A stretch of DNA of 64,000 nt from Paenibacillus swuensis (lineage in GTDB: Bacteria; Bacillota; Bacilli; Paenibacillales; DY6): positions 1,783,001 through 1,847,000 of the forward strand of contig NZ_CP011388.1 of the NCBI RefSeq assembly GCF_001644605.1, given 5' to 3'. A program made the position numbers and the translations under genes. The notes beneath the pieces are model-generated. The model ran no database searches, was not told the origin of the DNA, and saw only the letters and a program-made list of their open reading frames with translations. Shown here piece after piece: positions 6,194 through 43,861 of the stretch. Each line of letters starts with the position of its first letter. The first letter of the stretch is position 1.

Positions 6194-6196
6194 GAA

Positions 6197-6522: not shown

Positions 6523-6554
6523 GCCAGATAAATTTGATCGGGAGTGTGTCATCC

Positions 6555-8780: not shown

Positions 8781-8832
8781 CGGCGGTTAGAAGAAGTTCG
8801 CATACACAAACGATATCGGAGGTCAGAACATC

Positions 8833-9870
8833 ATGGAACTTACCAAGAAGAAGTTGTTTAACGAGCGCGGCGACCGCGACTGGGGCAAACGCCGAATGAT
8901 CGGCGGGAATACAACGAATCTGATTGAGCTCAACAATGTGAAATATGAGTGGGCCACCAAAATGTACCGCACGATGATGAACAATTTCTGGATTCCGGAA
9001 GAAATTTCTCTTGCTCAGGACGCCAAGGACTATAAGAATCTGTCTAATGAAGAAAGACAGAGCTATGACAAAATCATTTCCTTCTTGATTTTCCTGGACT
9101 CTTTACAAACGGCCAATTTGCCGAATATCAACGAGTATATTACCGCGCCGGAAGTTAACCTGTGTCTGACCGTACAGACGTTTCAGGAAGCGGTACACAG
9201 TCAGAGTTACTCTTATATTTTGGACAGCGTCTGTCCGGCGGAGGTTCGGGATCGCATATATAATGAATGGCGCGAGGATGAGCATTTGTTGAAACGGAAC
9301 CGGTTTATTACAGACTTGTATGAGCAATTTATCGCGGAACCTACGGATCGCAATCTGCTGAAGACGATTATGGCGAACTATATTTTGGAAGGAATCTACT
9401 TTTACAGCGGGTTCAGCTTCTTCTATGCCCTGGGTCGTCAAGGCAAAATGCTGGGCACCGTCTCGGAGATTAAATATATTCAACGGGATGAGCTGACCCA
9501 TCTTGCGTTGTTTCAGGGAATTTTTCGGGAAATACACAGAGAAAATCCGGAGATCCTGGATTTAGCCTTGATTGAGGAGCTTCGCGACATGATGCGTACA
9601 GCCGTTGAACATGAGATCAGCTGGGGTCAATATATTACAGCGAACCGGATACCGGGGCTGACGAATGAAATCGTGGAAAACTATATTCAATTCCTGTCCA
9701 ACGAACGTCTTCGCAAAATTAATCTGGCTATCCTCTACCCTGACGTGGTGGAGCATCCGTTGAAATGGGTTGAGAGCTTCAGTAACATGAACGGGATGAA
9801 GACGGACTTTTTTGAGCAAAAGGTGACGAATTACAGCAAATCCACGAATTTAAACTGGGACGAACTGTAA
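8833..9870 (+). CDS. nrdB: Class I ribonucleotide reductase, beta subunit
   Basis: The small subunit houses the dimetal centre and tyrosyl radical that NrdA uses. All ligands of the family are seen: Asp89, Glu119, His122, Glu186, Glu220 and His223. The radical tyrosine is present at Tyr126 (EAVHSQSYSYIL), so this is not a class Ic (Phe) type. The 345-residue length is normal. The ATG follows ATCGGAGG. The gap of 52 bases after nrdA without a terminator supports one transcript. Confidence 0.96.
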   Translation: MELTKKKLFNERGDRDWGKRRMIGGNTTNLIELNNVKYEWATKMYRTMMNNFWIPEEISLAQDAKDYKNLSNEERQSYDKIISFLIFLDSLQTANLPNINEYITAPEVNLCLTVQTFQEAVHSQSYSYILDSVCPAEVRDRIYNEWREDEHLLKRNRFITDLYEQFIAEPTDRNLLKTIMANYILEGIYFYSGFSFFYALGRQGKMLGTVSEIKYIQRDELTHLALFQGIFREIHRENPEILDLALIEELRDMMRTAVEHEISWGQYITANRIPGLTNEIVENYIQFLSNERLRKINLAILYPDVVEHPLKWVESFSNMNGMKTDFFEQKVTNYSKSTNLNWDEL

Positions 9871-23315: not shown

Positions 23316-23333
23316 CAGCAAGCAAGCCCCTCA

Positions 23334-23368
23334 TTCCAGCGTAAAGCTGGTTCGAGGGGCTTCTTTGT
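23334..23368 (+). terminator. purT terminator
   Basis: AAGCCCCTC pairs with GAGGGGCTT, followed by CTTTGTTG. Confidence 0.7.
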
Positions 23369-23423: not shown

Positions 23424-23966
23424 TCATTTTGATATAGAGTTAATTGAGATTAACCATTTGTTGGAGTCTTCTCTTTTATGAATAACAATATCAACTTTAG
23501 ATCCGGATGCAAGTTCTACAAGAAAACCCTTATTTCCATCTCCATCAACATCATTCCGCTCAAGATATTTGTATTTAACAATTTCACCTTTATTTTTCAT
23601 CGTCAATAACTCTTCCTGGTAGAAGGATCTAAACTCATCTTCATTAACAAAAGTGGAATAAAAAGGACTGCAAACATCTTCTCTTCCTTTAAGTACGGTT
23701 CTTTCAGGCAGTGGTATAGATAAATCTTTTAATTCATGCTCATATTCACATCTAAATTCTTTACTTGGAAAAACAAAGCTCTTCGCAAAATCATTGAACT
23801 CTAGATTCCAAAAGTAAAATTGAAACACAATTAGGATAGGTAAAGAAATAGCAATGATATATTTAGTAGTTTTTGTTCTTTTTGTTAAACTAGTAAATAC
23901 GATGAGCATGATTACTACCAGAATCATAATAATGGAATAGGGTATATACAATACATTTCCAGCCAC
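23424..23966 (-). CDS. AT-rich hypothetical membrane protein
   Basis: A 180-residue protein with two N-terminal membrane helices (about 7-26 and 36-52) and an extracytoplasmic domain containing the acidic turn VDGDGNKG. The GTG start has only a weak ribosome-binding site. Its base composition is clearly more AT-rich than its neighbours, suggesting late acquisition. It lies 18 bases after the metal-transporter fusion gene and may be read through from that operon. A short palindrome at 23391-23416 may end it. No family is recognised. Confidence 0.6.
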   Translation of the reverse strand: MAGNVLYIPYSIIMILVVIMLIVFTSLTKRTKTTKYIIAISLPILIVFQFYFWNLEFNDFAKSFVFPSKEFRCEYEHELKDLSIPLPERTVLKGREDVCSPFYSTFVNEDEFRSFYQEELLTMKNKGEIVKYKYLERNDVDGDGNKGFLVELASGSKVDIVIHKREDSNKWLISINSISK

Positions 23967-23984: not shown

Positions 23985-25580
23985 CTACTTCGCTCCCGCT
24001 TCCTTCTTCTGCACATCCGAGTTAGCGGCATCCGCCTCCGAGCGCCTCACCATGAGACGCCACATCATCTGCGCCGCCTGCCGCACCGTCTTCGGCCGCG
24101 CCGCCGCGCCGTCCACGCCTTCGAGCAGCCGGAACGGCCGCGCGAGACGCGGCAGGTGCAGATCCGCCGACGCAATCACCGCGTCGTCGAAGAGCAGGTC
24201 GGTCCCGCCGCTAGCCAGCAGGCGGCCCTCCTTCAGAATGAGCACCTCGTCGGCCCATTCCGCCGCAAAGTCGACGTCATGCGTCGCCACCACGAGCGTA
24301 ATGCCCATGAGGTGCATCGCCTCCAGCAGCGACTGCAGGTCGTCCCGCCCCTTCGGGTCGAGAAACGCCATCGGCTCATCGAGCACGATGATATCGGGCC
24401 GCATGGCCAGCACCCCAGCGATTGCAACGCGGCGCTTCTGACCATAGCTCAGCTCGAACGGCGAGCGCTTGCGAAGCTCGCGCATGCCTACCGAGCCGAG
24501 CGCGACCCTCACGCGTTCCTCCACCTCGGCTTCGGACAACCCCTGGCCCCGCGGACCAAAGGCGACGTCCTCCTCCACCGTGGTGGAGAAGATTTGGTCG
24601 TCGGGGTCCTGGTACACCACCCCCAGCTTTAACCTCGCCATCTCGCGGTTCTTCGCCGTCAACACTTCGCCGAAGATGGAAACGGTACCGCTGCTCGGCT
24701 CTTCCAACCCGTTGAGCAGGGAAATCAATGTGGATTTTCCCGCTCCGTTCGGCCCCATTAAGGCGACTTTCGCGCCTCGCCCAATGGAGAACGAAACTCC
24801 ATGCAACACCTCAGCATCACCGTAGCGATAACATACATCCTTTAACTCGACCGCCATCCGTCCTCGCCCCCCTTCCTTTCGCAAACCCGCTGCATGATCC
24901 GGCACACCTGCGACCTCAAAGCCGCCCCGAGCGGAAATGGAATTGTAGATCCGCCGGCTGCGGCTCAAAGCCCGGATGAACAAGACGCCCAGCAACTGAC
25001 CAAACCGGCGATAAGTGGCAACCGACCACAACCAGCCTTTCATGTTCAGCCCCCGGGAACGCTGTGCTTTAACCATGCCCTGGACTTCCTCCGTTAACAG
25101 AAAGAAGTAACGCAGCATCATCCCGATCAGCTCGACCATGACGGCCGGCACACCGATGGCGCGCAAACTTTTGATCAAATCGAACATAGGGGTTACCGCA
25201 ACCAAATAAGCAATCAACAGATTCGCATTTACCAATTTCAAAAGGATCAGACCCGATTTGTCCAGCCCTTCCGCCGTTACTCGGAGACCGAACCATCCCG
25301 TATACACAACTTCCCCCGCTGTTGAGAAAGGCAGCAGCACCGCTGCCAACCCAAACGGAATCAGCAACAGCAATCGGCTTACAATATACCGCAAAGGTAC
25401 GTTGCACCACAACATGATAAATAGAAAAATGCCCGCTGTCCAACTAAGGACAGCCAGGCTGTTTACAGAGACGGTCCCGATAAGGAGTCCCATTATAACC
25501 AATAATCGATGCGCAGGTTTGGCGATGATCGCCTTTAACCGCTCCGCTTCATTTGGATTTATCGTTATTTTGCCGATCAT
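23985..25580 (-). CDS. CbiQ-CbiO fusion: ECF transporter T component plus ATPase
   Basis: One frame of 531 residues joins two normally separate ECF metal-transporter subunits. Residues 1 to about 245 are the membrane T component (CbiQ), including the ALSRSRRIYNSISARGG coupling region. Residues 250-500 are a full ABC ATPase with Walker A GPNGAGKST, signature LSYGQKRR, Walker B IIVLDEP and the switch His in VVATHD. Just before the CbiO part the DNA still carries AAAGGAAGGGGGG followed by an ATG, as if a former ribosome-binding site were now coding. It acts with CbiM to import Co or Ni; nickel is favoured by context. The start overlaps the upstream gene by 32 bases. Confidence 0.88.
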   Translation of the reverse strand: MIGKITINPNEAERLKAIIAKPAHRLLVIMGLLIGTVSVNSLAVLSWTAGIFLFIMLWCNVPLRYIVSRLLLLIPFGLAAVLLPFSTAGEVVYTGWFGLRVTAEGLDKSGLILLKLVNANLLIAYLVAVTPMFDLIKSLRAIGVPAVMVELIGMMLRYFFLLTEEVQGMVKAQRSRGLNMKGWLWSVATYRRFGQLLGVLFIRALSRSRRIYNSISARGGFEVAGVPDHAAGLRKEGGRGRMAVELKDVCYRYGDAEVLHGVSFSIGRGAKVALMGPNGAGKSTLISLLNGLEEPSSGTVSIFGEVLTAKNREMARLKLGVVYQDPDDQIFSTTVEEDVAFGPRGQGLSEAEVEERVRVALGSVGMRELRKRSPFELSYGQKRRVAIAGVLAMRPDIIVLDEPMAFLDPKGRDDLQSLLEAMHLMGITLVVATHDVDFAAEWADEVLILKEGRLLASGGTDLLFDDAVIASADLHLPRLARPFRLLEGVDGAAARPKTVRQAAQMMWRLMVRRSEADAANSDVQKKEAGAK

Positions 25581-25920
25581 GGATCATGCCCCGCTTCGCA
25601 AGTAAGTAAGTGATTCCATAAAGTACGGATATGACCAGGATGATGCCTAAGACGCCCGCTGTCCCAACTTTGAGGGCATTGGAAGCAAAGCTGCCGGCCT
25701 CATAGTCAGGAAAAGGAGACCACTGGAACACGGGCGAAGCTTGATCTGCAAACTGGTGATCTTCCGCGACCCGGTCCAACCCGTCGGGTTTGGAAGAAGC
25801 GTACGGCGAGAGCACTCCGGCAATTACAATCGTTCCCGCCACCATGCCGATCCATTTCCATTTACTGCGGGTTAGAGCATATTCGGACTCTTTGTTCCCA
25901 TCACTTATATGTTGTTTCAT
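25549..25920 (-). CDS. PDGLE-domain protein, CbiN-like accessory subunit
   Basis: A 123-residue protein with two membrane helices (about 23-41 and 87-109) around an external domain beginning SSKPDGLDRVAEDHQF. This is the PDGLE domain, often fused to CbiM/NikM or separate as a CbiN/NikN-like subunit. It overlaps cbiM by 4 bases and cbiQO by 32, so the three are translationally coupled. Related domains are common in nickel as well as cobalt ECF systems. Confidence 0.85.
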   Translation of the reverse strand: MKQHISDGNKESEYALTRSKWKWIGMVAGTIVIAGVLSPYASSKPDGLDRVAEDHQFADQASPVFQWSPFPDYEAGSFASNALKVGTAGVLGIILVISVLYGITYLLAKRGMIHDRQNNDKSK

Positions 25921-26546
25921 GCCGTCACCTCGGATGGAATCGTAATTTTACGTTCAACCAGATAAGCCGCGACCATTGCCGTGATCGCCCCTTCACCAAT
26001 TCCGATGATACTGTGCCAGCCGACCATTGCGGTAAATACACTGCCGGCGGGGTACCCCGACCAGATGAGCAGCAAGGACACGGACGCGGCGGCCAACACC
26101 AGCGAGAACCAGGCCGAGATAAACGTGACCGCAAACCTGAACTTGCCGCCAATCGCACCCATTCCCAACCGGTACATGCCGTACCCGGCGAGCGAACCAA
26201 TGACACCCGTGCACAATATATTCGCTCCAAGCACCGTGATTCCTCCGTCCTGGAAGAAGAAAGCCTGGATGATCAGCACGGCCGCCATAATGATAATGCC
26301 CACAGCCGGACCGAACAGGATCGAAGCCAATGTTCCGCCGAGAAAATGTCCCGAGGTTGCGCCCGCAATCGGAAAGTTGATCATTTGAGCCGCGAAGATG
26401 AAGGAGCCTACCAACGCGATGGTGGGTACCTGCTTGCGTGACAGCTCCAGCTTGGATTTGTTCAAGGCGTATCCTAAAGCGCATGCCCCTGCTGCCGTTG
26501 TCGTAACCCATGTCTTCGTATCCAAAAACCCGTCAGGTATATGCAT
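25917..26546 (-). CDS. cbiM: Energy-coupling factor metal-binding permease CbiM/NikM
   Basis: The substrate-binding S component of a Co or Ni ECF importer, with about seven membrane helices in 209 residues. It begins MHIPDGFL; the N-terminal Met1-His2 coordinates the metal, so the start must be exact, and an ATG behind GGGAGGG provides it. A second metal His lies in TSGHFLGGTL. Sequence alone does not separate Co from Ni. Its place three bases after a hydrolase likely to need nickel, and not under the cobalamin riboswitch, favours nickel. Confidence 0.92.
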   Translation of the reverse strand: MHIPDGFLDTKTWVTTTAAGACALGYALNKSKLELSRKQVPTIALVGSFIFAAQMINFPIAGATSGHFLGGTLASILFGPAVGIIIMAAVLIIQAFFFQDGGITVLGANILCTGVIGSLAGYGMYRLGMGAIGGKFRFAVTFISAWFSLVLAAASVSLLLIWSGYPAGSVFTAMVGWHSIIGIGEGAITAMVAAYLVERKITIPSEVTA

Positions 26547-26549: not shown

Positions 26550-27698
26550 TTATTTCCCTCCAATTTTCCCGTTATCGACCATGGTTGCCAGTACATCAAG
26601 GACGGCGCGGGTCGCCAACAATGCCGTAGTATCGCTGATATCATAAGCAGGCGCGACTTCAACCACTTCCATGGCGCACAGTCCTTCTTTGGCTACCAGC
26701 TGCATCAGCTTCAACGCCTCGCGAGGCAGGAAGCCACCGGGCTCCGGCCAACCTGTACCGGGAACGAAGCCGCAATCGATGGAATCGATATCGAAGCTTA
26801 AGTAAACGGCTTTTGCCCCTTTCCACGCCACTTCCAACGCCATCTCCGCCACTTTCTCGATCCCCAGTGTTTCCACATCGTTAATCGTCATTATCGTCGT
26901 ACCGCGCTCACGGCCAACTTGAACGCCTGCCCGAGGAACCTGCCAGCCGCCGATCCCGATTTGTACCAGATTCACAGCCGGCGCATTCGGAATGTTGGTC
27001 GCATGGAACCATGGTGTCGTATGCATACGCTCATCCATATCCTTCTCCTGAATGTCGATATGACGGTCCAAGTGGATAATCCCGATATTACCTTCCACAT
27101 TCTCGGCCACGCCTCGCACACACGGGTAACCGATGGAATGATCCCCGCCCAGAATAATCGGCATCGTGCCTTTCCCCATAACATGGGATACCGCCTTGGA
27201 AATTTGATCAAAGCTCTTCTCAATATTGGCAATCGTGAACACATCGCCGAGATCGCAGATTTTCAGTTGTTCTCTGAGGTCCACGCCCATTTCATAGTTA
27301 TAAGTTTGGTATAAGGCACTGATTCGTCTGATCGCCTGCGGACCGAAGCGGGTACCCGAGCGATACGTAGTTCCAATGTCAAAAGGCACACCCATAACCG
27401 CCACATCATAATCGCCGACTTTGTTGACATCTTCAAGGTAAGGCATCTTCAGGAATGTATTGATTCCGGCATAATGCGGCAGCTCTCCGCGGCTGAATGT
27501 GGAAATGGTGCGGTCCCCTATGCTTTCCGCAGCCTCCAGACCCAGCTCCAAATTACGCTTCACCTGCTCTTCATGACGTGCAAAAGATAATGTCGCTTCT
27601 TTCTCCGCGGCTTGAATGCCGTGCAAATCTTCCCTGTTGAAACCGGCTTCCTCTCTTGTCTTGCGGTAGTTTAAACCATGATTATCGAAAAATCCCAT
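26550..27698 (-). CDS. gdmH: Agmatinase-family hydrolase, probable Ni-dependent guanidine hydrolase
   Basis: A ureohydrolase of 382 residues with an N-terminal extension of about 95 residues relative to minimal agmatinases. Metal ligands are His187 (GGDHS), Asp211/His213/Asp215 (HLDRHIDIQ; classic enzymes have DAHxD) and Asp303/Asp305 (SFDIDSID). Near the active site the motif GTGWPEPGG has Trp317 where agmatinases usually have Thr, which would narrow the pocket. The gene is in an operon behind a guanidine-I riboswitch, with an ABC importer upstream and a Ni/Co importer downstream. Characterised guanidine hydrolases of this family need nickel and give urea and ammonia. Guanidine hydrolysis is inferred; a plain agmatinase is the alternative. 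Confidence 0.8.
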   Translation of the reverse strand: MGFFDNHGLNYRKTREEAGFNREDLHGIQAAEKEATLSFARHEEQVKRNLELGLEAAESIGDRTISTFSRGELPHYAGINTFLKMPYLEDVNKVGDYDVAVMGVPFDIGTTYRSGTRFGPQAIRRISALYQTYNYEMGVDLREQLKICDLGDVFTIANIEKSFDQISKAVSHVMGKGTMPIILGGDHSIGYPCVRGVAENVEGNIGIIHLDRHIDIQEKDMDERMHTTPWFHATNIPNAPAVNLVQIGIGGWQVPRAGVQVGRERGTTIMTINDVETLGIEKVAEMALEVAWKGAKAVYLSFDIDSIDCGFVPGTGWPEPGGFLPREALKLMQLVAKEGLCAMEVVEVAPAYDISDTTALLATRAVLDVLATMVDNGKIGGK

Positions 27699-27728: not shown

Positions 27729-28520
27729 TTAATGATGCTTGAGCATCGAGGACAGTTTCTTTTTTAGTTGGATAAACTCGAACAGTTCCTTCACATCCTG
27801 CGAACGACCCTCCGGCAACGCCACTTGAAAATCACCGGTGATCCGTCCGGGATTCGCTCCCATCACGAGAACACGTTGCGATAGAAAAATCGCTTCGTCA
27901 ATATCATGGGTGATGAACACAACGGTTGTCTTTTCCTTCACCCATACGTCCAGCAGCATCTCTTGCATCTCCAGCTTGGTTTGGGCGTCTAACGCGCCGA
28001 ATGGTTCATCCATCAGTAGCACCTTGGGTTTATTAGCCAACGCCCTTGCGATGGCTACCCGCTGCTTCATCCCGCCTGAAAGCTCTTTGGGGAAGGCGTT
28101 CGCGAATTTCTCCAGCCGGATGATACGTAAATAGTGGTCGGAGATCCGGCGTCGTTCAAAAATTGTAAGTCCCTTAAGCTTCGGTCCATATTCAATATTC
28201 TGGCGAACCGTAAGCCACGGGAATAACGTGTATCCCTGAAATACCATCCCCCGGTCGGCTCCCGGACCCAAGACGGTGTTGCCCTCTACGCTGATTTCTC
28301 CGTCCGATGCATCCTCAAGTCCTGCAAGAATGCGCAGCAATGTGGATTTGCCGCAACCGGAAGGACCCAGAATCGAGATAAATTGTTGTTTCGGTACGGT
28401 CAGTTCAATTCCCTTCAATGCTTCAAAGGTAGTTTTGCGGGTTTCATACCTTTTGCTCAGCCCAGTTATCAGAATTTGCGGTTGCTCACTAGCTTGCAGG
28501 GTAGTTGCGGCATCATTCAT
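27729..28520 (-). CDS. ABC transporter ATPase (nitrate/sulfonate/taurine family), guanidine operon
   Basis: A 263-residue ATPase with Walker A GPSGCGKST, Q-loop MVFQGYTLFPW, signature LSGGMKQR, Walker B VLLMDEPFGALD and the switch His in VVFITHD. The family is SsuB/TauB/NrtD-like. It partners with the permease 21 bases upstream and the binding protein before it. The riboswitch upstream predicts guanidine as the imported substrate. Confidence 0.9.
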   Translation of the reverse strand: MNDAATTLQASEQPQILITGLSKRYETRKTTFEALKGIELTVPKQQFISILGPSGCGKSTLLRILAGLEDASDGEISVEGNTVLGPGADRGMVFQGYTLFPWLTVRQNIEYGPKLKGLTIFERRRISDHYLRIIRLEKFANAFPKELSGGMKQRVAIARALANKPKVLLMDEPFGALDAQTKLEMQEMLLDVWVKEKTTVVFITHDIDEAIFLSQRVLVMGANPGRITGDFQVALPEGRSQDVKELFEFIQLKKKLSSMLKHH

Positions 28521-28541: not shown

Positions 28542-29396
28542 TTAGGTCCAAGGGAAAAGTCTCTTGTTAAGGAAGGCAAAAATCCGGTCGCTGATTAATC
28601 CAAGCAAACCAATGACAATGATGCCGACAAAAATTTGCTCGGTATTCAGAAACCGCTGGGCCTTCATAATGTCATAGCCTAAGCCGCTGCTTGCCGCAAC
28701 CAGCTCCGCAACCACTAAATACGTCCATGCCCAACCGAGAATGAGCCGGAGCGTGTTCATTAAACCCGGGCGTATGGCAGGAATCAGCACAGTTTCAACA
28801 GCCTTCCACCTGCCGGCCCCAAGGGTAAAGGAGGCTTGCAGCAAATCCTTCGAAACTTGGCGTGTAAGGTCGGCTACCATTAATACCAGTTGAAAGAAGC
28901 AACCGATGAAGATGAGAAGAATTTTCGCCCATTCGCCGATTCCCGCCCAAACCATAATCAGCGGAATGAAGGCTACCGCAGGCATGTAGCGGATAAACTC
29001 CATCGGCGGTTCAATAAAGGCTTCGCCCGCCTTAAACGTCCCCGCCAGTATGCCAAGGGGTATGCCTATGACACAAGCAAGCGTGAACCCGGCGCTTACA
29101 CGGAGTATACTGATGCCGATGTCTCCCCAGTAAGCTTGTGTGCCGAGTTGCTCAAACAAATGAGTTAACACGGCTAAAGGGGTAGGCAGAAACACCGGGT
29201 TCACCCACTCCATATAGCTTAGCAAGGACCATAGAGCCAACAGAATAACAAAAGAAGCTGTTGTAAATCCGAAGAAAGCAAGTGGGGGGAGCGGTTTGAA
29301 AATTTGGAAATGGGGCCTTCGCTTCATCGTTGACTTGGGTATGTTTATTTCCGCCGACATTCCGCTTGTGTCTCGTCTAAGTTCCGCTCGCTCCAT
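28542..29396 (-). CDS. ABC transporter permease (SsuC/TauC-like), guanidine operon
   Basis: A 284-residue permease with six predicted membrane helices after a polar N-terminus of about 40 residues. The EAA loop is LLQASFTLGAGRWKAVETVLIPAIRPG. It follows the binding-protein stop by six bases. In-frame later ATGs could shorten the N-terminus. The substrate is inferred to be guanidine from the riboswitch and operon. Confidence 0.9.
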   Translation of the reverse strand: MERAELRRDTSGMSAEINIPKSTMKRRPHFQIFKPLPPLAFFGFTTASFVILLALWSLLSYMEWVNPVFLPTPLAVLTHLFEQLGTQAYWGDIGISILRVSAGFTLACVIGIPLGILAGTFKAGEAFIEPPMEFIRYMPAVAFIPLIMVWAGIGEWAKILLIFIGCFFQLVLMVADLTRQVSKDLLQASFTLGAGRWKAVETVLIPAIRPGLMNTLRLILGWAWTYLVVAELVAASSGLGYDIMKAQRFLNTEQIFVGIIVIGLLGLISDRIFAFLNKRLFPWT

Positions 29397-29402: not shown

Positions 29403-30404
29403 TCACCTCTCTGCCAAGTCTTTTACGAATTTAGGTTCCAGAATTTGATCCACTTCCGGCAAGTCACTAATCATATCCAGGGATTTTAAGAATTCAGCGG
29501 TTTTGTTGCCTGTATATTCTAATGATGTGTAGTCCTCTGTTTTCTCGAATGCTTTCAGGTTATCTTCCACAGAGAACATCTTCACGCTGTCTAGCCCCAG
29601 CTTGAAATCTTCAGGTGTTGTTTCGGCGCGTTTGGCCATCAACTCAATCGCCTCCTGTTCGTTCTCTTTGAAATATTCCATTGCATCAAACCAGGCATCT
29701 ACGATTTTCTGTACCTCTTCTCCGCGTTTCTCCGTTACTTCCTTACGGAAAACCAGCAAGTCCGGAATAAGTCCCGGTGTATCTTTGGAGGAGAAGAGCA
29801 CCTGTCCCTTGCCTTCCTTCACAGCTTTCGTCTGGAAAGGCTCCCAGAGCACCGACGCATCCGTATTCCCGCTGATAAAGGCAGGCCCGGCATCGTTTAC
29901 GGTCATATTCACATATTTGATATCGGATTCCTTCATGCCGTTCTGATCGAGCGCCGTCAGCAGCAATAGATGGTCAACTGTGCCGAGCTCAGTCGCTACA
30001 GTCTTGCCTTTCAGGTCGGCAATGGTCTTGATCTCAGGTTTAGAGACAATCGCATCCCCCCCGTTGGAATTGTCATTCACAAGAACAGCAGATAGTTCAA
30101 TGCCTTTGGAAGCCGGTGCTAACGTGTCGCTGAGGGTCTGACTGTTCGCATCCACTTTCCCGGTGGACAGCGCTTGTAAGGAGTCGCTATAGACGGGGAA
30201 CCATTCCAATTTCACGTTCACATCATGTTTCTCGAAGAAACCCTTCTCTTCCACCAGATACCAGAAAAACCACCCCGGCCACGGACTGAGCGCAATCTTG
30301 ATCGGTTCATCAGTGCCCCCCGCCGTATTTTTCGAATTGCAACCGGAGAGAATTGCCGCCATAAGGATCATTACCGCAAGGCTGAATGTAATCGTCTTTC
30401 TCAT
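29403..30404 (-). CDS. ABC substrate-binding lipoprotein, probable guanidine binding
   Basis: A periplasmic-binding-like lipoprotein of 333 residues in the NMT1/SsuA-type family. The signal peptide MRKTITFSLAVMILMAAILS leads to the lipobox Cys. AAGGGAGTGG precedes this ATG; the frame stays open upstream through the riboswitch, but those 33 codons are noncoding. PWPGWFFWYLVEEKGFFEKHDV is the typical first strand-helix. It is first in the operon with permease, ATPase, hydrolase and the metal importer. Guanidine as ligand is inferred from the riboswitch. Confidence 0.9.
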   Translation of the reverse strand: MRKTITFSLAVMILMAAILSGCNSKNTAGGTDEPIKIALSPWPGWFFWYLVEEKGFFEKHDVNVKLEWFPVYSDSLQALSTGKVDANSQTLSDTLAPASKGIELSAVLVNDNSNGGDAIVSKPEIKTIADLKGKTVATELGTVDHLLLLTALDQNGMKESDIKYVNMTVNDAGPAFISGNTDASVLWEPFQTKAVKEGKGQVLFSSKDTPGLIPDLLVFRKEVTEKRGEEVQKIVDAWFDAMEYFKENEQEAIELMAKRAETTPEDFKLGLDSVKMFSVEDNLKAFEKTEDYTSLEYTGNKTAEFLKSLDMISDLPEVDQILEPKFVKDLAER

Positions 30405-30420: not shown

Positions 30421-30572
30421 TTTCTGTTTATGAATAAAGAAAAGCCGGGGAGAAATCTCCCAGGCTTTTGTCCCTCCGTGTTATATGAACCGCAATAGTT
30501 CATACGCCGCCTCTCGGACCAGCTTGAACGCTAACTCAGCGCTCAACGGAACCCTAGACTGCTATTGTTATT
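30421..30572 (-). ncRNA. Guanidine-I (ykkC) riboswitch
   Basis: Read on the minus strand the conserved ykkC blocks occur in order: TCTAGGGTTCCG, then CTGGTCCGAGAG, then ACACGGAGGGACAAAAGCC followed by TGGGAGA. The 3' block AAAAGCCTGGGAGA can instead pair with TCTCCCCGGCTTTT directly downstream, forming a terminator followed by CTTTATT (30435-30469). Guanidine binding should keep the block in the aptamer and allow read-through, an ON switch. It lies 17 bases before the binding-protein start. Confidence 0.95.
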
Positions 30573-30645: not shown

Positions 30646-30698
30646 ATATTAAATGTTGTCGGACTTTTCTGTCAATACTTATGTCAGGTTTTATCACA
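30646..30698 (-). promoter_or_regulatory. Promoter and GlnR/TnrA box of the guanidine operon
   Basis: Minus strand: TTGACA, 17 bases, TTAATA, giving a start near 30640. Upstream, TGTGATAAAACCTGACA (30682-30698) matches TGTNA-N7-TNACA exactly and is centred near -50, the position from which TnrA activates. Confidence 0.7.
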
Positions 30699-33885: not shown

Positions 33886-34584
33886 TTACAGTGTAATATG
33901 TTTCTTCACAATCTCATCACTCAGCGCGCTGATCGGGCCTTCAGCCACGATCGTCCCCTTCTCCATCACATAGAAGTAGTCCGCCACGCTCCGCACAAAC
34001 TCCAGGCTCTGCTCCACCAGCAGCACGCCCGTGCGGCCTTCCGCCTTGATGCCGCGAATTACATCGCGGATATCTTCCACGATCGAAGGCTGAATGCCTT
34101 CGGTCGGCTCGTCGAGCAACAGCACCTCCGGCCGGGAAGCCAACGCCCGGGCAAATGCAAGCTGCTGCTGCTGACCGCCGCTTAAATCGCCGCCGCGGCG
34201 TTCATACATCGACGGCAACACAGGAAACTTCTCAATCGCTTCCGCGGGAATATCCCTCGGCGTTTTTCCCGCCACTGCTTCCAAGCCGAGCAGCAGGTTC
34301 TCGTACACGGTAAGCTGACCGAAAATCTCTCTCCCCTGCGGCACATAGCCGATGCCCTGCTTAGCCCGCACCCCCGGCGCGCGGCGGGTAAGCTCCCGAT
34401 CACCATAGGATACAGCTCCTTTACGCGCCTTCAGCAACCCCATAATGCTTTTCATCAACGTCGTCTTCCCGACCCCGTTACGCCCCATCAGGCACACCAC
34501 CTGACCCGGTTGAACCTTCAGCGACACATCCCGCAGAATGACACTTTCTCCATATCCGGATTCCAGTTTCTCAACTGTGAGCAT
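33886..34584 (-). CDS. urtE: Urea ABC transporter ATP-binding protein UrtE
   Basis: A LivF-like ATPase of 232 residues with Walker A GRNGVGKTT, signature LSGGQQQQ, Walker B VLLLDEPTEGIQPS and the switch His position replaced by Gln in VLLVEQSLEF, typical of the family. The start used (MLTVEKLESGYGES) follows GGCGGGAT; ATG two codons earlier is possible, and the long open frame upstream is in UrtD-coding DNA. It overlaps urtD by 14 bases and ends the operon. Confidence 0.92.
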   Translation of the reverse strand: MLTVEKLESGYGESVILRDVSLKVQPGQVVCLMGRNGVGKTTLMKSIMGLLKARKGAVSYGDRELTRRAPGVRAKQGIGYVPQGREIFGQLTVYENLLLGLEAVAGKTPRDIPAEAIEKFPVLPSMYERRGGDLSGGQQQQLAFARALASRPEVLLLDEPTEGIQPSIVEDIRDVIRGIKAEGRTGVLLVEQSLEFVRSVADYFYVMEKGTIVAEGPISALSDEIVKKHITL

Positions 34585-35383
34585 GCGCATCCCGCCTTTT
34601 CCCCAAATAAACCTCGGCCACCCTGTCATCCTGCTGCACTTCTTCCATAGTGCCTTCCTTGAGCAGCTGTCCCTCGTGCATGACCGTAACTTTGCTGGCA
34701 AAATTCCGCACGAACTCCATATCATGTTCCACGACTACAACGGTATGTTCATTGGCAATATCGCGCAGCAACTCACCCGTCAAATCCGTTTCCTTGTCCG
34801 TCATGCCGGCCACAGGCTCATCGAGAAGCAACACGGACGGTTCCTGCAGGAGCATCATCCCGATCTCAAGCCATTGTTTCTCCCCGTGAGACAAACTTCC
34901 TGCCCGCCAGGCGGTCTTGGCCCGAAGTCCGATTCGATCGAGCTGCCGATCGATTCTCTCCTGATCCTCGCCGGTCATCGCCGCGCGCATCGTAGCCCAT
35001 ACCGAACGGTTCTGTTTCATGGCCAGCTCCAGATTCTCGGCTACGCTCAGTCCCGCGAAAACGGACGGAGCTTGAAACTTGCGGCCGATGCCGAGCTCGG
35101 CGATTTGATGTTCTTTTTTGCGCGTAATCTCGATATCGCCTTGGAACAGGACCCGCCCGCTAGCAGGACGCGTCTTTCCGCAGATCACATCCAGCATCGT
35201 CGTTTTCCCCGCTCCGTTCGGACCGATCAGAAACCGCAGCTCCCCTTGCTGAAGCTTTAGACTCATCCGCTGTACCGCCTTGAACCCGTCGAACTCCACC
35301 GTGATGTCTTCACAGGATAAGATTACCTTCGGCTCAGGCACCGCTTTACCAGTTACATTCTCGATCTCCGTTACCGCGTTCAT
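34571..35383 (-). CDS. urtD: Urea ABC transporter ATP-binding protein UrtD
   Basis: A LivG-like ATPase of 270 residues with Walker A GPNGAGKTT, signature LSHGEKQW, Walker B VLLLDEPVAGM and the switch His in VVVEHDMEF. SHGEKQW instead of SGGQ is characteristic of UrtD. Its ATG overlaps the urtC stop as ATGA and follows GGAGGAG. Confidence 0.93.
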   Translation of the reverse strand: MNAVTEIENVTGKAVPEPKVILSCEDITVEFDGFKAVQRMSLKLQQGELRFLIGPNGAGKTTMLDVICGKTRPASGRVLFQGDIEITRKKEHQIAELGIGRKFQAPSVFAGLSVAENLELAMKQNRSVWATMRAAMTGEDQERIDRQLDRIGLRAKTAWRAGSLSHGEKQWLEIGMMLLQEPSVLLLDEPVAGMTDKETDLTGELLRDIANEHTVVVVEHDMEFVRNFASKVTVMHEGQLLKEGTMEEVQQDDRVAEVYLGKRRDAHAHS

Positions 35384-36504
35384 GCATTCTCCTCCTTCCG
35401 TTTTCTGCCGCTCACCCAACCGGCCACGGACCGTCGGAATCCGGAAGAGCTTTTCCCGCCGCCGGCTAACAACTCCGGACCCTTAGGAAACAGGCCCAGG
35501 ATACCTTTAGGCAGGAAGATGACCACCGCCACGAACAACCCTCCGACAAAATACAGCCATACCTCCGGATAGTTTTCACTGAACAAGCTTTTGGCCGTAT
35601 TCATAAACACCGCGCCGAAGGCCGCGCCTGCAATGGTTCCGCGTCCGCCTACAGCGACCCACAACACCATCTCGATGGACGGTACAATGGCCATCATGGA
35701 AGGCGAGATAATGCCGACATGCAGGACGAATAACATGCCCGCGAGCCCGGCCAAGCCTGCCGATATACCGAAAGCGACCATCTGATAAGCAGCCGGATTG
35801 TATCCGATAAACCGAACACGGTTCTCACCGTCACGGATCGCCTTCAACACCTTGCCGAAACGGCTCCGCACCAAGGCTTGGCATAGCAGGAACGTCACAA
35901 CCAGAAACGCCACCGTGACGAAATACAGCACATTCTTCGTGTCTTGCGAAGCAAGCGAGAAGCCGAACAGCGTCTTAAAGCCCGTGACTCCGTTCGTACC
36001 GCCGGTGTAGGCTTGCTGACCTACGAATAAAGTAACCGTGATGATGACCAACGCCTGTGTGAGAATTGTGAAATACACCCCGCGGATCCGGTTCCGAAAC
36101 GTAAAGAACCCAAGCATTAACGCGAGCAGTGCGGGCAGCAAAATCCCCATAGGGAAAGCGAACCAGAAATATTCGAACGGCTTCCAGAACCAAGGGAGCT
36201 GCGTTAATCCGCTCCAGTTCATGAAATCAGGCAACTTGCCTCCGCTGGCTTCCAACTTCAGATACATGGCCATCGCATAGGCGCCTATTCCGAAAAACAC
36301 ACCGTGACCCAAGCTCAAAATCCCCGTATACCCCCACAACAAATCCAAACCGATCGCAACGATGGCAAAAGCCAAAAATTTGGCAAGCAAATTTAATCTA
36401 AAGTCATTCAAAAATAAAGGAGCGCAGAGCAGAAAAGCACTTGCCGCGCCATAACCGACCAACAATTTCACTCTTGTTACCGAAGACATCTTTAATACGG
36501 ACAT
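35380..36504 (-). CDS. urtC: Urea ABC transporter permease UrtC
   Basis: A LivM-like permease of 374 residues with about nine membrane helices. It contains LDLLWGYTGILSLGHGVFFGIGAYAMAMYL and the UrtC-type GGTNGVTGFKTLFGF segment. GGAGGAGG lies eight bases before the ATG. It forms the translocation pore with UrtB. Confidence 0.93.
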   Translation of the reverse strand: MSVLKMSSVTRVKLLVGYGAASAFLLCAPLFLNDFRLNLLAKFLAFAIVAIGLDLLWGYTGILSLGHGVFFGIGAYAMAMYLKLEASGGKLPDFMNWSGLTQLPWFWKPFEYFWFAFPMGILLPALLALMLGFFTFRNRIRGVYFTILTQALVIITVTLFVGQQAYTGGTNGVTGFKTLFGFSLASQDTKNVLYFVTVAFLVVTFLLCQALVRSRFGKVLKAIRDGENRVRFIGYNPAAYQMVAFGISAGLAGLAGMLFVLHVGIISPSMMAIVPSIEMVLWVAVGGRGTIAGAAFGAVFMNTAKSLFSENYPEVWLYFVGGLFVAVVIFLPKGILGLFPKGPELLAGGGKSSSGFRRSVAGWVSGRKRKEENA

Positions 36505-36522
36505 CCTTGTTTCCTCCTCCCT

Positions 36523-37434
36523 CTATGAATCCAATGAACGTGAACGAACAGCCACAAGCCCCATCGGTCTCCATTGCAAAAACGCCACAATCAGCAAGAA
36601 CACAAGCACCTTCCCCAGGGAAGCGGTAGTCCAGTATTCAAACAACGTATTTGTGAGCCCGATGCCCAACGCTCCCGCAACGGTACCCACCAATTTCCCG
36701 ACGCCTCCCAGCACAACAACCATGAATGCATCAATGATGTAATAGGTGCCAATGGCCGGACCGATCGGACCCAGCAACGTCAACGCACATCCCGCGATAC
36801 CGGCAATCCCGGACCCAACCGCGAAAGTCATCGCGTCTACCCTGCGAGTAGAGATCCCGAGACAAGACGCCATCTCCCGGTTTTGCATAACAGCGCGCAT
36901 TCTTCGTCCGGTGTGGCTGCGATATATATAGACAAACATACAGAGCAGACATACGGCGACCAAGCCGATAATAAACAGCCGCTTGTAAGGAAGGACCAAA
37001 CCCTCCGTTACAGCCCATCCGCCGTTCAGCCATTCGGGACTTTTCACGCCCACATTCGGAGCTCCGAATAGCGTCCGCGCCAGCTGTTGCAGGATCATGC
37101 CGATTCCCCAGGTAGCCAGTAAGCTGTCGAGCGGTCTGCCGTAGAGAAAACGGATCAGAACGCCTTCCAGCACGAATCCGAACACGAAGGCGACGATAAA
37201 ACTGACCGGGATCGCCGTAATGAAATACCATCCGAATGATGAGGCGGGCATATATTCCATGAATAAATTCTGTGTGACATAGGTGGCGTAAGCCCCGATC
37301 ATAATCAGCTCACCGTGAGCCATATTAATGACTTTCATCAAACCGAATGTAATTGCAAGGCCCAAAGCGATAAGCAGCAGAATCGAGCTGACGCTTAATC
37401 CGTTAAAAATTTGCAGCAAGATGACATCCATCAT
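36523..37434 (-). CDS. urtB: Urea ABC transporter permease UrtB
   Basis: A LivH-like permease of 303 residues with about eight membrane helices. GLMKVINMAHGELIMIGAYATYV is the family hallmark, and NRRMRAVMQNREMASCLGI-like sequence (RRMRAVMQNREMASCLG) fits UrtB. AGGGAGG precedes the ATG. It is separated from urtA by a terminator-like hairpin, so expression may be stepped down. Confidence 0.93.
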   Translation of the reverse strand: MMDVILLQIFNGLSVSSILLLIALGLAITFGLMKVINMAHGELIMIGAYATYVTQNLFMEYMPASSFGWYFITAIPVSFIVAFVFGFVLEGVLIRFLYGRPLDSLLATWGIGMILQQLARTLFGAPNVGVKSPEWLNGGWAVTEGLVLPYKRLFIIGLVAVCLLCMFVYIYRSHTGRRMRAVMQNREMASCLGISTRRVDAMTFAVGSGIAGIAGCALTLLGPIGPAIGTYYIIDAFMVVVLGGVGKLVGTVAGALGIGLTNTLFEYWTTASLGKVLVFLLIVAFLQWRPMGLVAVRSRSLDS

Positions 37435-37570
37435 TAAACCTCCCTGTAACCATCCTGTTAAGGTGAAACGGCTGGCGCCGTCCTTACAGGCGCATAGTTC
37501 GTTTCATTCCGAAGAAATATCAGAATAGGGTATGAGCAAAAAACTTATACTTTCTGATATTTTAAAAAAA

Positions 37571-37612
37571 AGCAGAGGAAGCCGGAGATCAACGTTCTCT
37601 CGCTCCCTCTGT
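37571..37612 (-). terminator. Intra-operon terminator between urtA and urtB
   Basis: Minus strand: CAGAGGGAGC pairs with GCTTCCTCTG (one mismatch-type pair), followed by eight T. It should reduce read-through, giving more binding protein than permease. Confidence 0.75.
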
Positions 37613-37631
37613 CCTTCCCCGTGATGATAAT

Positions 37632-38891
37632 TTATTCGCTTAAGCCCTTAGCCCACTCATAACCTTTCAGGTACGGGTCCGGTTTCACAGGATCTCCTGT
37701 GGACCAAACTTCCTTAATGAGTCCGTCCGCCTGAACTTCGCCGATCCGAACCACTTTAGAAATATGTTGGTTCTCGCCGTCGATCGTGACTTTGCCTTCA
37801 GGCGCCGTCCACTCCAACCCTTTGGCCGCTTCCTTCACTTTGTCCACATCCGTGGAACCCGCTTTCTCAACAGCCGCTTTCCATAAGTACACCGCCGTAT
37901 AACCGGCTTCAATCGGATCCGCGGTTACCCGGTCCTCGCCGTATGCTTTCTTGTAGTTGGCAACAAACGCTTTGTTCTCCGGCGTATCCGTCGTTTGATA
38001 GTAGTTCCATGCTGTCAGATGTCCTTCAAGCACATCCGCGCCGATCGCCCGAATTTCTTCTTCCGCCACACTCACGGACAAGGTCGTCAGATCCTTGGAC
38101 GAAATGCCCGCGTCTTTCAACTGCTTGAAGAAGGCTACGTTGCTGTCCCCGTTGAGCGTGTTGAACACGACATCCGGTTTGGCTTCTTTAATTTTGCTTA
38201 TAATCGTACTGTAATCGGTGTGACCCAACGGGGTATATTCTTCGCCAACCATTTCTCCGCCCTCGGAAGCCAGTTGCGCTTTAATAATTTTGTTAGCTGT
38301 ACGCGGGAATACATAATCGGAACCCAGCAGGTAGAATTTCTTCTTACCCAGATCCTTCGCCAAATATGTAACCGCGGGCACGATCTGTTGGTTCGTCGTT
38401 GCGCCTGTGTAGAAGATGTTTGGAGAGGACTCCAATCCTTCATACTGAACCGGGTACCATAGCAAGCTGTTCAATTCCTCAAACACTGGGAGCATTGTCT
38501 TCCGGCTGGATGAGGTCCAACCGCCGAATACGGTAACCACCTTATCCTCTTGAATCAACTTACGGGCTTTCTCCGCAAAAGTAGGCCAATCGGACGCGCC
38601 GTCTTCCACGACAGGGATAATCTTCTTACCCAGCACCCCGCCTGCCGCATTGATCTCATCGATCGCCATCATCTCCGCCTCTTTAACCGACACCTCGCTG
38701 ATCGCCATCGTTCCGCTCAGGGAATGCAAGACGCCGACCTTGATGCCGTTTTCACCGTCCGCCGACGCATTCGCTGTCGCGTTCGTGCTCGCCTCATTAG
38801 CTCCCTCGTTGTTTCCGTTGCCGCAGCCTGTAAGACCCAAACATAATGCCAATAGCAGTGAAGCCGTACCTTTCCACACCTTGTTCTTCAT
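37632..38891 (-). CDS. urtA: Urea ABC transporter substrate-binding lipoprotein UrtA
   Basis: A lipoprotein of 419 residues: signal peptide to LGLTGC, a Asn/Ala-rich linker, then the Peripla_BP_5/FmdD-type domain. [22 protein letters not shown] and [26 protein letters not shown] are diagnostic for UrtA. It is first in urtABCDE. It captures urea, including perhaps urea that leaks out after guanidine hydrolysis. Confidence 0.95.
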
Positions 38892-39075: not shown

Positions 39076-39130
39076 TGTAATAAAACCTTACATAAATGTG
39101 TTTACAAACGCTGCTCACCTCAGATAAAAT
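39076..39130 (+). promoter_or_regulatory. ureA promoter with upstream GlnR/TnrA box
   Basis: TGTAATAAAACCTTACA (39076-39092) matches TGTNA-N7-TNACA exactly. Downstream lie TTTACA (39101-39106), 18 bases and TAAAAT (39125-39130), giving a start near 39137. The box centre is near -53, suited to activation. Confidence 0.65.
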
Positions 39131-39173
39131 GTCTACAACGACAATATATGGTGCTGATAAGGAGAATCTTTAC

Positions 39174-39476
39174 ATGCATTTTACCGAGAGAGAGAAAGAA
39201 AAGCTGCTTATCACCGTTGCTGCGGACCTGGCCCGCAAACGCAAGGCGCGCGGCTTGAAGCTGAACTATCCCGAAGCCATGGCGCTGATTGTCTCCGAGA
39301 TTATGGAAGGGGCCAGGGACGGCAAGACCGTCGCCGAGCTTATGGAATACGGCGGAACGATTCTGGCCAGGGAAGATGTTATGGAAGGTATCGCGGAGAT
39401 GATGCAGGAAGTGCAGGTTGAAGCTACGTTCCCGGACGGCACGAAATTAGTCACGGTTCATGAACCGATTCGATAA
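39174..39476 (+). CDS. ureA: Urease subunit gamma UreA
   Basis: The 100-residue gamma subunit begins [13 protein letters not shown] and contains [12 protein letters not shown] and [11 protein letters not shown], typical of UreA. AAGGAG precedes the ATG; an upstream in-frame start lies in the promoter. It is the first gene of ureABCFGD. Confidence 0.96.
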
Positions 39477-39489
39477 GGAGGCTTCCAGA

Positions 39490-39867
39490 ATGATACCAGG
39501 AGAATACCGCACCGCGACGGGAACATTGCTTATCAATGCGGGGCGTTCCTATGTTTCCATATTAGTCTGCAATCAGGGCGACCGTCCTGTACAGGTTGGA
39601 TCGCACTTTCACTTTTATGAAGTAAACCGGGCGTTAAGTTTCGAACGTTCCGCAGCCTTTGGCATGCGTCTGGATATCCCTTCAGGCACCGCGGTCCGCT
39701 TTGAACCCGGGGAAGAGAAGCATATTACATTGGTAAGTCTGGGCGGGACTAAGGAAGTGTTCGGGCTTAATAACTTAACCGGCGGTTCAGCCCAGCCTGA
39801 ACTTGCGCAATCCGAAGACATTCAGGCCCGCCTGAAGAAATGGCTGGGAGGCGAGACCCTTGGCTGA
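39490..39867 (+). CDS. ureB: Urease subunit beta UreB
   Basis: The 125-residue beta subunit begins MIPGEYR and contains [15 protein letters not shown]-like sequence ([19 protein letters not shown]) and [23 protein letters not shown] precedes the ATG; the frame's earlier start lies within ureA. It overlaps ureC by 8 bases. Confidence 0.96.
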
Positions 39868-41590
39868 GATGTCGCGAGCCCAGTATGCTTCCATCTTCGG
39901 TCCTACGACCGGCGACGCGGTACGATTGGCGGATACGGAACTGTGGGCGGAGATTGAACAGGATTACACCATATACGGGGATGAATGCAAATTTGGCGGA
40001 GGCAAGGTGATCCGGGACGGGATGGGGCAATCTTCACGCGCCACCCGCAAGGACGGCGCCCTGGATCTGGTCATTACCAATGCGGTAATTATTGATCATT
40101 GGGGCATTGTGAAAGCCGATATCGGCATCCGTGACGGCCGGATCGCGGGCATCGGCAAAGCCGGCAATCCGGACACGATGGACGGGGTTCATCCGAATCT
40201 GATCATTGGCGCTTGTACAGAGGTTATCGCCGGGGAAGGCCGCATTGTAACCGCAGGCGGAGTTGATTCACATATCCACTTCATCTGTCCCCAACAGATT
40301 GAAACTGCCCTTGCTTCAGGCGTGACTACGATGATCGGCGGCGGAACCGGTCCAGCGACGGGAACGAATGCGACAACCTGCACGCCTGGAGCGTGGAATT
40401 TACACCGGATGTTGGAATCCGTTGAAGCTTTTCCAATGAATATCGGATTTCTCGGCAAAGGCAACAGTTCCTTCCCGGAGCCGCTTGCGGAACAGCTTGA
40501 AGCCGGAGCCATCGGCCTGAAGCTCCATGAAGACTGGGGTACGACACCTGCATCAATCGACATGTGTCTGACGGTGGCGGAGCAGTACGACGTACAGGTA
40601 GCCATTCATACCGATACGTTGAACGAAGCCGGTTTCGTGGAGGATACGCTCGCCGCCATTAAAGGCCGCACCATTCATACGTACCATACCGAAGGCGCGG
40701 GCGGAGGTCATGCCCCCGACATTATTAAGGTGGCGGCCGAGCCTAACGTAATTCCGTCATCCACGAATCCCACGCGTCCCTTCACTGTAAATACGATTGA
40801 AGAGCATCTCGATATGTTGATGGTCTGTCATCACTTGGACAGCACCATCCCTGAGGATGTAGCATTCGCAGATTCACGGATTCGACCGGAAACAATCGCA
40901 GCCGAAGACATCCTCCATGATCTGGGCGTATTCAGTATCATATCTTCGGATTCACAGGCCATGGGGCGTGTTGGCGAAGTCATTACGCGGACATGGCAAA
41001 CGGCGGACAAGATGCGAAAGCAGCGGGGCGTTCTGACGGAGTCTGACGAAATGACGAATTTGCCGGAGCATGACAATTTCAGAATCAAGCGCTACGTGGC
41101 CAAATATACGATCAATCCGGCGATCGCGCACGGAATTTCCCACATCGTAGGTTCCGTGGAACAAGGCAAGTGGGCCGATCTTGTTATCTGGCAACCGGCA
41201 TTTTTCGGTGTGAAACCGGAAATTATTCTTAAAGGCGGTATGATTGCCTATGCGCAGATGGGCGATCCCAATGCGTCGATTCCCACACCACAACCGGTTT
41301 ACGGCCGCCCCATGTTCGGAGCTTTCGGGAAGGCGGTACAGCGCACCTCCATTACGTTCATTTCCAAGTATGCATACGACAACGGAGTCCATGAAGAATT
41401 GGGCCTCCAGAAGCGCATTGAGTATGTTAAAGGCTGCCGGTCTGTCGGGAAGAAAGACATGATTCATAACAACGGGACCCCTACCATTGAGGTGAACCCG
41501 GAGACGTACGAAGTCCGTGTGGACGGAGAACCCGTTACATGCGAACCTGCTGAAGTCCTGCCCATGGCTCAGCGTTATTATTTATTCTGA
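39860..41590 (+). CDS. ureC: Urease subunit alpha UreC
   Basis: The catalytic subunit hydrolyses urea to ammonia and carbamate at a dinickel site. The 576 residues carry all active-site groups: His138, His140, the carbamylated Lys221 (GLKLHEDWG), His250, His276, the catalytic His324 in MVCHHLD, and Asp364. The TTG start, eight bases after GGAGG and overlapping ureB, is preferred over an ATG three codons later. Confidence 0.97.
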
Positions 41591-41618
41591 TCCGTGTCAT
41601 CCGAAGGAGGAGTTCCAA

Positions 41619-42311
41619 ATGCACAGCGGCTCAAGATTGTTATCGTATGTTCAGTTATTGGATTCGGCCCTTCCCATCGGAGGTTTCTCGCACTCATTCG
41701 GGCTGGAAACCTATGTTCAGAATGGTCAAATTCAGAATATGCAACAACTAGAGGAATTCATCCGATCCCAGATTCACAGCAATCTGGTCCGTCTGGACGG
41801 GATGGTGATGAAAGGAATTTATACCGCAATCGTTCAGGATGATCTGTGGAAGCTGTGTCTTCTGGATAAAATCATCCACATTCAGCGCACCCCCCGGGAG
41901 TCCAGGGAGGGCATGCATAAGATGGGCAAGCGTCTGTTGAAGCTCGCCCGCACCCTGTACCCATGGATGGACTTCAAGCCGCTGGAGAAGTCGTTCGCTC
42001 AATACGGCGGCTACGGCAGCCTGCCCACCATCCATGCCTGGATTTCTTATCATCTGGAAGTAGACGCGGATGAAGCGGTTAAAGGCTATTTATACTCCAG
42101 TGTTGTAACCATGGTTAACAGCGCTTTACGGTTAATGTCCATCGGACAGACCGACGGCCAGGTGCTTATTCAGAAACTGATATCCGTCATTGATTCCGAA
42201 TGGGAAGCGGCCTGCAAAGAACCTGTAGACCATCTGCATTCCTTCTCCCTTGCTCATGAAATTCATTCCATGAATCATGAGACGCTGTATTCCCGGTTAT
42301 TCATGTCCTAA
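41619..42311 (+). CDS. ureF: Urease accessory protein UreF
   Basis: A 230-residue chaperone that gates nickel delivery with UreG and Ure[23 protein letters not shown] is the family signature. AAGGAGGAG precedes this ATG; the frame is open upstream inside ureC only by chance. No ureE lies between ureC and ureF. Confidence 0.95.
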
Positions 42312-42357
42312 TTGCAAGCCGTACCCACTCACATTACATGATCAGGAGGAATTTACA

Positions 42358-43056
42358 ATGTGCCAAGGCGCCAATCATTCACACGAACAATGGGTCTCTC
42401 CGACCGTTACTCATGACCGTCCCATCCGAATTGGTATCGGGGGTCCTGTCGGTTCAGGCAAGACCGCGTTGGTTGAAAATTTAAGCAAGCGTATGCGTGA
42501 TCACTACAGCATCGGTGTGATCACGAACGATATCTATACTAAGGAAGATGCCGAGATTTTAATTCGCGCGGCGGCGCTGCCAACAGAGCGCATTATCGGC
42601 GTTGAAACCGGCGGATGTCCGCATACGGCGATTCGCGAGGATGCTTCCATGAACTTTGAAGCCGTGGAAGAATTGGAATCCCGTATTGATGATCTGCAAA
42701 TCATCTTCATCGAGAGCGGCGGCGATAACCTTGCGGCGGCATTCTCCCCGGAGCTGGTTGATCGTTTCATCTACATTATCGACGTAGCTCAGGGCGAGAA
42801 GATTCCCCGCAAAGGCGGTCCCGGCATTATGCGTTCCGACCTGCTGATCATCAACAAGATTGACCTGGCTCCGCATGTCGGGGCTTCCCTGGAAGTGATG
42901 AAGAACGACACGGAGCGCATGCGGGGTAACCGGCCGTATGTATTCTCGAACCTGATGTCAGGCGAAGGACTGGACACGATTCTGCACTGGATCGAACACC
43001 AGTTGGACGCATCTCCAAGTCATGAGCATAAAGCAACCTCCCACCAGCACGGGTAG
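42358..43056 (+). CDS. ureG: Urease accessory GTPase UreG with His-rich ends
   Basis: A SIMIBI GTPase of 232 residues that delivers nickel to apo-urease. The P-loop GGPVGSGKT is at 28-36, the metal motif CPH is in [11 protein letters not shown], and [10 protein letters not shown] is the base-recognition region. The N-terminus (His7, His9, His19) and C-terminus ([11 protein letters not shown]) are His-rich, beyond the usual UreG core, and may bind nickel in place of the missing UreE. AGGAGG precedes the ATG. Confidence 0.95.
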
Positions 43057-43861
43057 ACACGCTTTGCTCCGCGGCCGGTTCACGCTCCGCGGCGGCAAGA
43101 CCGTGCTGACCGAGCGCTTTCATCAAGCGCCGCTGAAGATTTCCAAGACGTTCGAGCTCTCCCCCGGAGGAGAGCTCTTGGTCTATATGATGGATGCGTC
43201 ACCGGGCATTCTCGACGGGGACCGCTACGAAATTCAGATGCACTTGGGCGAAGGCACGCAAGTATACCTGACGAACCAGTCCTATACGAAGGTGCACCCG
43301 ACGCCCAAGGAATCGTCTGCAATGGTGCAGACGTTCACGCTAGAACGAGGATCCATGCTTGAATACTTTCCTGAGCCGCTCATCCCCTATGCGGACAGCA
43401 AGTTCCGCTCCGATACCGTCTTTCACCTAAGCGAGGATGCGGTCGTGATGTACGGGGATATTGTGACCCCCGGCCGTATCCATCACGGGGAACAATTTCT
43501 TTATGAGCGCCTGGACAGTCATATGGAAGCTTACCGCGACGGGAAGTTAATCGCTTGGGATCATTTTCATCTGAAACCGCGAGACCACCGATTCCGCACC
43601 CTGGGCGCGTTGGAGCATTACACGCACGCAGGGGCGCTATGGATCTTCGCTCCTGGCGTTAATGAGGAAATCCTTCGTGAGCTTAGAGCCCATTTCCCCG
43701 CGGAAGGTTTGTTGATCGGCGCAAGCTTAACCGCTGAACAAGGTTTGCTAGTCCGCATGCTGGGCACACAAGTATGGAAGCTTCAGGAGACCATGCAAAC
43801 GCTCGCAGGGCTTTGCCGAAAGCTGCTGCTCGATAAAGAACCTCACCGAATAAGAAGATAA
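43022..43861 (+). CDS. ureD: Urease accessory protein UreD/UreH
   Basis: A 279-residue scaffold for UreF and Ure[34 protein letters not shown] is the core UreD signature, split here between residues 58 and 92. The ATG lies 35 bases inside ureG, in another frame, so translation is coupled. It ends the urease operon. Confidence 0.93.

Follow-up and report, generated by a model that had tools for sequence, protein, structure and literature searches.

A guanidine-I riboswitch in Paenibacillus swuensis heads a guanidinase operon that appears to carry its own nickel supply

Results

In the window, a stretch of 64,000 nucleotides from Paenibacillus swuensis, a guanidine-I riboswitch precedes seven closely packed genes on the minus strand, which encode an ABC importer, a guanidinase of the GdmH type and an ECF-type metal importer. 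We consider it very probable that these genes constitute a guanidine-induced catabolic operon that brings along the supply of its own cofactor, where the response to the ligand, the single transcript, nickel as the metal and guanidine as the substrate of the ABC importer are all inferred from the features described below.

A guanidine-I aptamer with an overlapping terminator

An earlier note on this DNA had assigned the interval 30421-30572, without specifying the strand, to a guanidine-I riboswitch and a terminator that overlaps it. Our analysis confirms that the interval spans both elements and locates them on the minus strand, downstream of a candidate promoter:

30646..30675, minus: candidate promoter of the sigma-70 type ahead of the aptamer, TTGACA-18-TAATAT, 10/12 consensus
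30455..30568, minus: Guanidine-I (ykkC subtype 1) riboswitch aptamer, RF00442
30440..30469, minus: intrinsic terminator acting as expression platform, folding energy -18.5 kcal/mol, z -3.3 relative to shuffled sequences

In a covariance-model search of the window, RF00442 matched with 73.4 bits, against a gathering score of 63, at E 3.8e-11 and over the full model from 1 to 107, which on score assigns the element to the Guanidine-I family. A scan of the whole genome recovered the same aptamer along with one further copy elsewhere. The ykkC blocks CTAGGGTTCCG, CTGGTCCGAGAG, CACGGAGGGA and AAAAGCCTGGGAGA are found in the expected order, as had been proposed, and in an alignment with eight other copies the blocks match and 40 columns are invariant. 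For the identification of copies we relied on the covariance model in place of a strict pattern search for ykkC blocks, which had overlooked several of them.

The last block of the aptamer, AAAAGCCTGGGAG (30469-30457), doubles as the 5' arm of the terminator, which is organized as AAAAGCC-U-GGGAG-AUUU-CUCCC-C-GGCUUUU with a U-rich tail at its end, and the folding energy of this hairpin bears out the dual role that had been ascribed to the block. According to the Rfam structure, the CC of AAAAGCCTGGGAG takes part in pairing within the aptamer, and in the terminator it pairs with GG, so that the two states would be mutually exclusive. This anatomy, which recurs in related genomes, fits an ON switch and suggests that the leader would operate in the manner described for the Guanidine-I class (PMC11410670). 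Sigma-70-type matches in the region are no commoner than expected by chance, and the candidate promoter thus constitutes weak evidence.

Organization of the seven-gene operon

Gene calls and family matches on the minus strand agree with the seven genes that had been proposed to follow the switch. From the first gene to the terminator that closes the region, the features are:

29403..30404, minus: lipoprotein substrate-binding protein (SBP) of an ABC importer, SsuA/NMT1 family (PF09084, E 4e-24)
28542..29396, minus: ABC permease (PF00528)
27729..28520, minus: ABC ATPase (PF00005)
26550..27698, minus: guanidinase of the GdmH type, arginase/ureohydrolase family (PF00491, E 2.7e-78)
25917..26546, minus: ECF metal importer, S component of the CbiM/NikM type (PF01891, E 1.9e-55)
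25549..25920, minus: small membrane protein with a PDGLE domain (PF13190, 59.3 bits)
23985..25580, minus: CbiQ-CbiO fusion combining the ECF transmembrane and ATPase subunits in one frame of 531 residues (PF02361 and PF00005)
23424..23966, minus: AT-rich orphan ORF of 180 residues, 18 nt downstream of cbiQO
23324..23362, both strands: bidirectional intrinsic terminator, which also ends a convergent purT-like gene

The start of the SBP gene was assigned in our analysis to the ATG at 30404, ahead of the sequence MRKTITF...LSGC, and the gene matches TIGR01728 above cut-off. Together, SBP, permease and ATPase form an SsuA-type ABC importer whose substrate is presumably guanidine.

The gaps between the seven genes measure, in order, 6, 21, 30, 3, -4 and -32 nt. 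With the start of cbiM located 3 nt past the stop of gdmH, a single transcript is by far the likeliest arrangement, and the gap leaves no room for an intergenic promoter. Gene packing and the conservation described below suggest that control by the riboswitch extends to the metal importer. The claim that no terminator intervenes before the end of the operon holds in so far as the terminator-like sites within it are at chance level (8 observed, 8.6 expected) and none stands out, including the one at 25454-25435 within the cbiQ part. The closing hairpin at 23362-23324 folds with -35.3 kcal/mol (z -7.5) on the minus and -37.3 kcal/mol (z -6.4) on the plus strand. Ahead of it, the orphan ORF, for which a Pfam search gave no match, has a GC content of 31% compared to 49-59% for the operon; it is perhaps co-transcribed, yet outside the conserved system, and its location between cbiQO and the terminator perhaps reflects a late insertion.

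The guanidinase and the metal of the ECF importer

The product of gdmH is closely related to the characterised Synechocystis enzyme (7esr/7oi1), with which it shares 63% identity over 351 residues (508 bits). In an alignment of six homologues, H187, D211, H213, D215, D303 and D305 are invariant, in line with the six ligands of the arginase fold, and as in the arginase family these residues are presumed to bind the metal. Judged by its sequence, the protein is a GdmH-type guanidinase, for which the family predicts a dependence on nickel. GdmH is nickel-dependent, and its Synechocystis gene belongs to a guanidine-I operon that also encodes proteins for nickel delivery (PMC12186494).

The M, Q and O components of the ECF nickel importer NikMNQO are all present (PF01891, PF02361, PF00005). 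At the position of the accessory subunit we find a match to PDGLE (PF13190), whereas the Pfam family CbiN is absent and NCBIfam CbiN models give weak matches below cut-off. CbiN is specific to cobalt uptake and has no significant similarity to NikN (PMC2667541). The PDGLE protein presumably plays a NikN-like role. Membership in the CbiM family alone cannot distinguish nickel from cobalt, and the best solved relative of the S component is 4m5b (79 bits, compared to 50.5 bits for 5x3x). We take 4m5b to be NikM2 of Thermoanaerobacter, a nickel protein, and 5x3x to be CbiM of Rhodobacter. This cbiM encodes the only CbiM in the genome, where a profile search found CbiC absent and no CbiL above cut-off, thus giving no sign of a corrin synthesis that would need a cobalt importer. 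The evidence on the metal of the ECF importer points to nickel. The inclusion of a metal importer, which had been considered unusual, is not odd: with GdmH as a nickel enzyme and an importer that looks to be of the nickel type, the latter is best read as the cofactor supply of the guanidinase.

Conservation of the arrangement and other gdmH loci

The order riboswitch-SBP-permease-ATPase-gdmH-cbiM-PDGLE-cbiQO recurs in four further genomes and is thus found in five in all. The additional loci, each with the seven-gene order and a Guanidine-I leader, are:

L021 (=L009): Paenibacillus alkalitolerans
L015 (=L010): a Bacillales MAG
L011: a further genome
L072 (=L012): a Paenibacillaceae MAG

The aptamer of L072 scores under the Rfam cut-off, yet every block and the terminator are present. 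An overlapping terminator is found in all five seven-gene leaders, with equivalent hairpins in L021, L011, L012 (=L072), L015 and also L016. The latter, from P. darwinianus, groups with the five seven-gene loci in one clade of the gdmH tree (support 98). It has the riboswitch as well as gdmH, but no ECF genes follow, indicating that the coupling of gdmH to the importer is not obligatory. When the search for relatives was restricted to the window's own family, only the genome of the window was returned. CbiQ and CbiO share one frame in the window, L021, L015, L011 and L072 and are separate in L031, L069 and L088.

A second gdmH clade, mainly from Bacillaceae, comprises L022, L025, L030, L031, L033-L036, L041, L043, L045, L047, L050, L051, L060, L066, L069, L084, L086, L088 and L090 (21 in total). 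All 21 adjoin nickel-type transport genes, namely CbiM-PDGLE-CbiQ-CbiO in 3, CbiO and NicO in 3 and CbiO in 15. CbiQ labels were never used alone, as the CbiQ profile had picked up ATPases after iteration, a contamination caused by the Q-O fusion. In L043, CbiM, a small protein, DUF4198 and CbiQ are found nearby, an arrangement resembling NikKMLQO, and some alphaproteobacterial gdmH loci contain HupE. The presence of different types of nickel importers beside gdmH makes a functional link likely. In view of the nickel-type genes adjoining the second clade and the conservation of the operon, the ECF importer most likely provides nickel for GdmH. No guanidine-I leader was detected in the second clade with model R1, nor with Rfam in the seven loci searched. 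At several of its loci, neighbouring genes look small heat-shock-like or spore-coat-like, a hint of different control.

Genomic setting

Two further gene groups adjoin the operon, which makes the handling of guanidine, urea and nickel neighbours in this genome, and a second riboswitch is located elsewhere:

33886-38891, minus: urea transport genes
39096-43861, plus: urease genes
L014:9020-9872 (contig C1 about 4914020-4914872), minus: locus of the second Guanidine-I riboswitch (82.9 bits)

The second riboswitch has its own overlapping terminator and is located upstream of a pair of small exporters of the SMR type, so that the genome contains an arm for the export of guanidine and one for its use. 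In a profile search of the genome, HypA and NicO were absent and no HypB was found above cut-off, the best match to the HypB model (window 42442-43005) being a ureG-like ORF of the urease cluster. The genome also encodes eight binding proteins resembling NikA, none of which comes near the NikA cut-off; they leave room for another nickel importer, such as one of the NikABCDE type.

Two other RNA families give matches in the window. Although the genome shows no markers of corrin synthesis, a cobalamin riboswitch (6181-6376, plus, 118 bits) is found before apparent ribonucleotide reductase genes (6534-9870). Antisense to ureC, there are matches to the Rfam family 5_ureB_sRNA in the window (40307-40013, minus, 104.6 bits) and in L011 (4017-4323, 118.3 bits), which overlap conserved coding sequence and may thus reflect the conservation of ureC only.

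Discussion

In the proposed mechanism, the last block of the leader would, without guanidine, fold into the terminator and transcription would halt before the first gene. Upon binding of guanidine, the aptamer would retain this block, so that the terminator is blocked and the polymerase could read through all seven genes. Read-through would thus provide an ABC importer for guanidine, the nickel-dependent GdmH, which would convert guanidine to urea and ammonia, and the ECF importer supplying Ni2+ to the enzyme. The resulting urea could be passed on to the urease encoded nearby.

The switch might instead govern the guanidine importer and the guanidinase, while expression of the metal importer depends mainly on its own promoter within gdmH or on basal read-through, in which case guanidine would have no real command of metal uptake. 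Such independent expression would suit the nearby urease, which also needs nickel and which strict guanidine control of the sole CbiM in the genome would starve unless other importers exist, and a weak promoter-like match within gdmH (26917-26890, 9/12) would permit some independent transcription of cbiM. We nevertheless consider this unlikely, since promoter-like matches in the operon are at or below chance level (6 observed, 8.0 expected), the space before cbiM is too short for a promoter and the gene order is conserved across the five genomes. Carrying the argument the other way, guanidine might even be what chiefly gates the specific uptake of nickel and thereby feed nickel to both GdmH and urease, as would follow from a sole CbiM under guanidine control in a genome where neither NicO nor HypAB was found; this extension appears rather unlikely.

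A role of the ECF importer in cobalt uptake for vitamin B12, with an accidental position behind gdmH, is very improbable. The family models do bear cobalt names and the window contains a cobalamin riboswitch, but this reading conflicts with the lack of CbiC and of any CbiL above cut-off, with PDGLE in place of Pfam CbiN, with the closer match of the S component to 4m5b than to 5x3x and with the NicO, HupE or DUF4198 genes of the nickel-uptake type at other gdmH loci. Hardly to be expected is a variant of the ykkC aptamer for another ligand such as ppGpp or PRPP, whose riboswitches count among the relatives of guanidine-I (PMC6031431), as the match to RF00442 is full-length and above cut-off, no other family was reported at the site, a guanidinase is encoded downstream and the second genomic copy precedes an SMR exporter pair. 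We thus favour an operon that is induced by guanidine and includes the nickel importer.

Comparison with known systems

The riboswitch class and its mechanism are already known, as is the guanidine-I control of gdmH together with nickel chaperones in cyanobacteria, where such an operon with gdmH and nickel-delivery genes was described in Synechocystis sp. PCC 6803 (PMC12186494) and in a picocyanobacterial version with a taurine-type ABC importer (PMC10119275). The cyanobacterial and the present system share the Guanidine-I leader, the nickel-dependent guanidinase, the ABC importer and accessory genes for nickel. The latter are hypA/hypB chaperones in cyanobacteria and an ECF importer in P. swuensis, in whose genome HypA is missing and HypB does not exceed the cut-off. 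An operon of comammox Nitrospira likewise combines a Guanidine-I switch with a guanidinase, but contains an APC permease and, according to the same report, no nickel-loading genes near the switch (PMC11410670). Genes for a nickel-dependent ureohydrolase are also found beside a nickel importer in metformin hydrolase operons, which contain hypA, hypB and a HupE-type importer instead of an ECF system and for which no riboswitch is mentioned (PMC11399263). The nickel ECF importers NikMNQO and NikKMLQO, which often adjoin urease or B12 genes (PMC2667541), resemble the present system in having M, Q and O components and, as it seems, in a small accessory membrane protein that differs from CbiN, whereas here the importer follows a guanidine riboswitch and gdmH, and Q and O are fused. 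A literature search that did not extend to Nelson 2017 and Funck 2022 found no report of a guanidine riboswitch over an ECF nickel importer.

What appears to be new is the composition: where the cyanobacterial operon has hypAB chaperones, this one has an ECF importer, most likely for nickel. Such a composition would widen the guanidine regulon from the transport and degradation of guanidine to providing the metal that the enzyme needs. It also makes it plausible that an RNA sensing a metabolite controls nickel uptake, and it suggests as a simple rule that guanidinase operons carry either nickel chaperones or a nickel importer.
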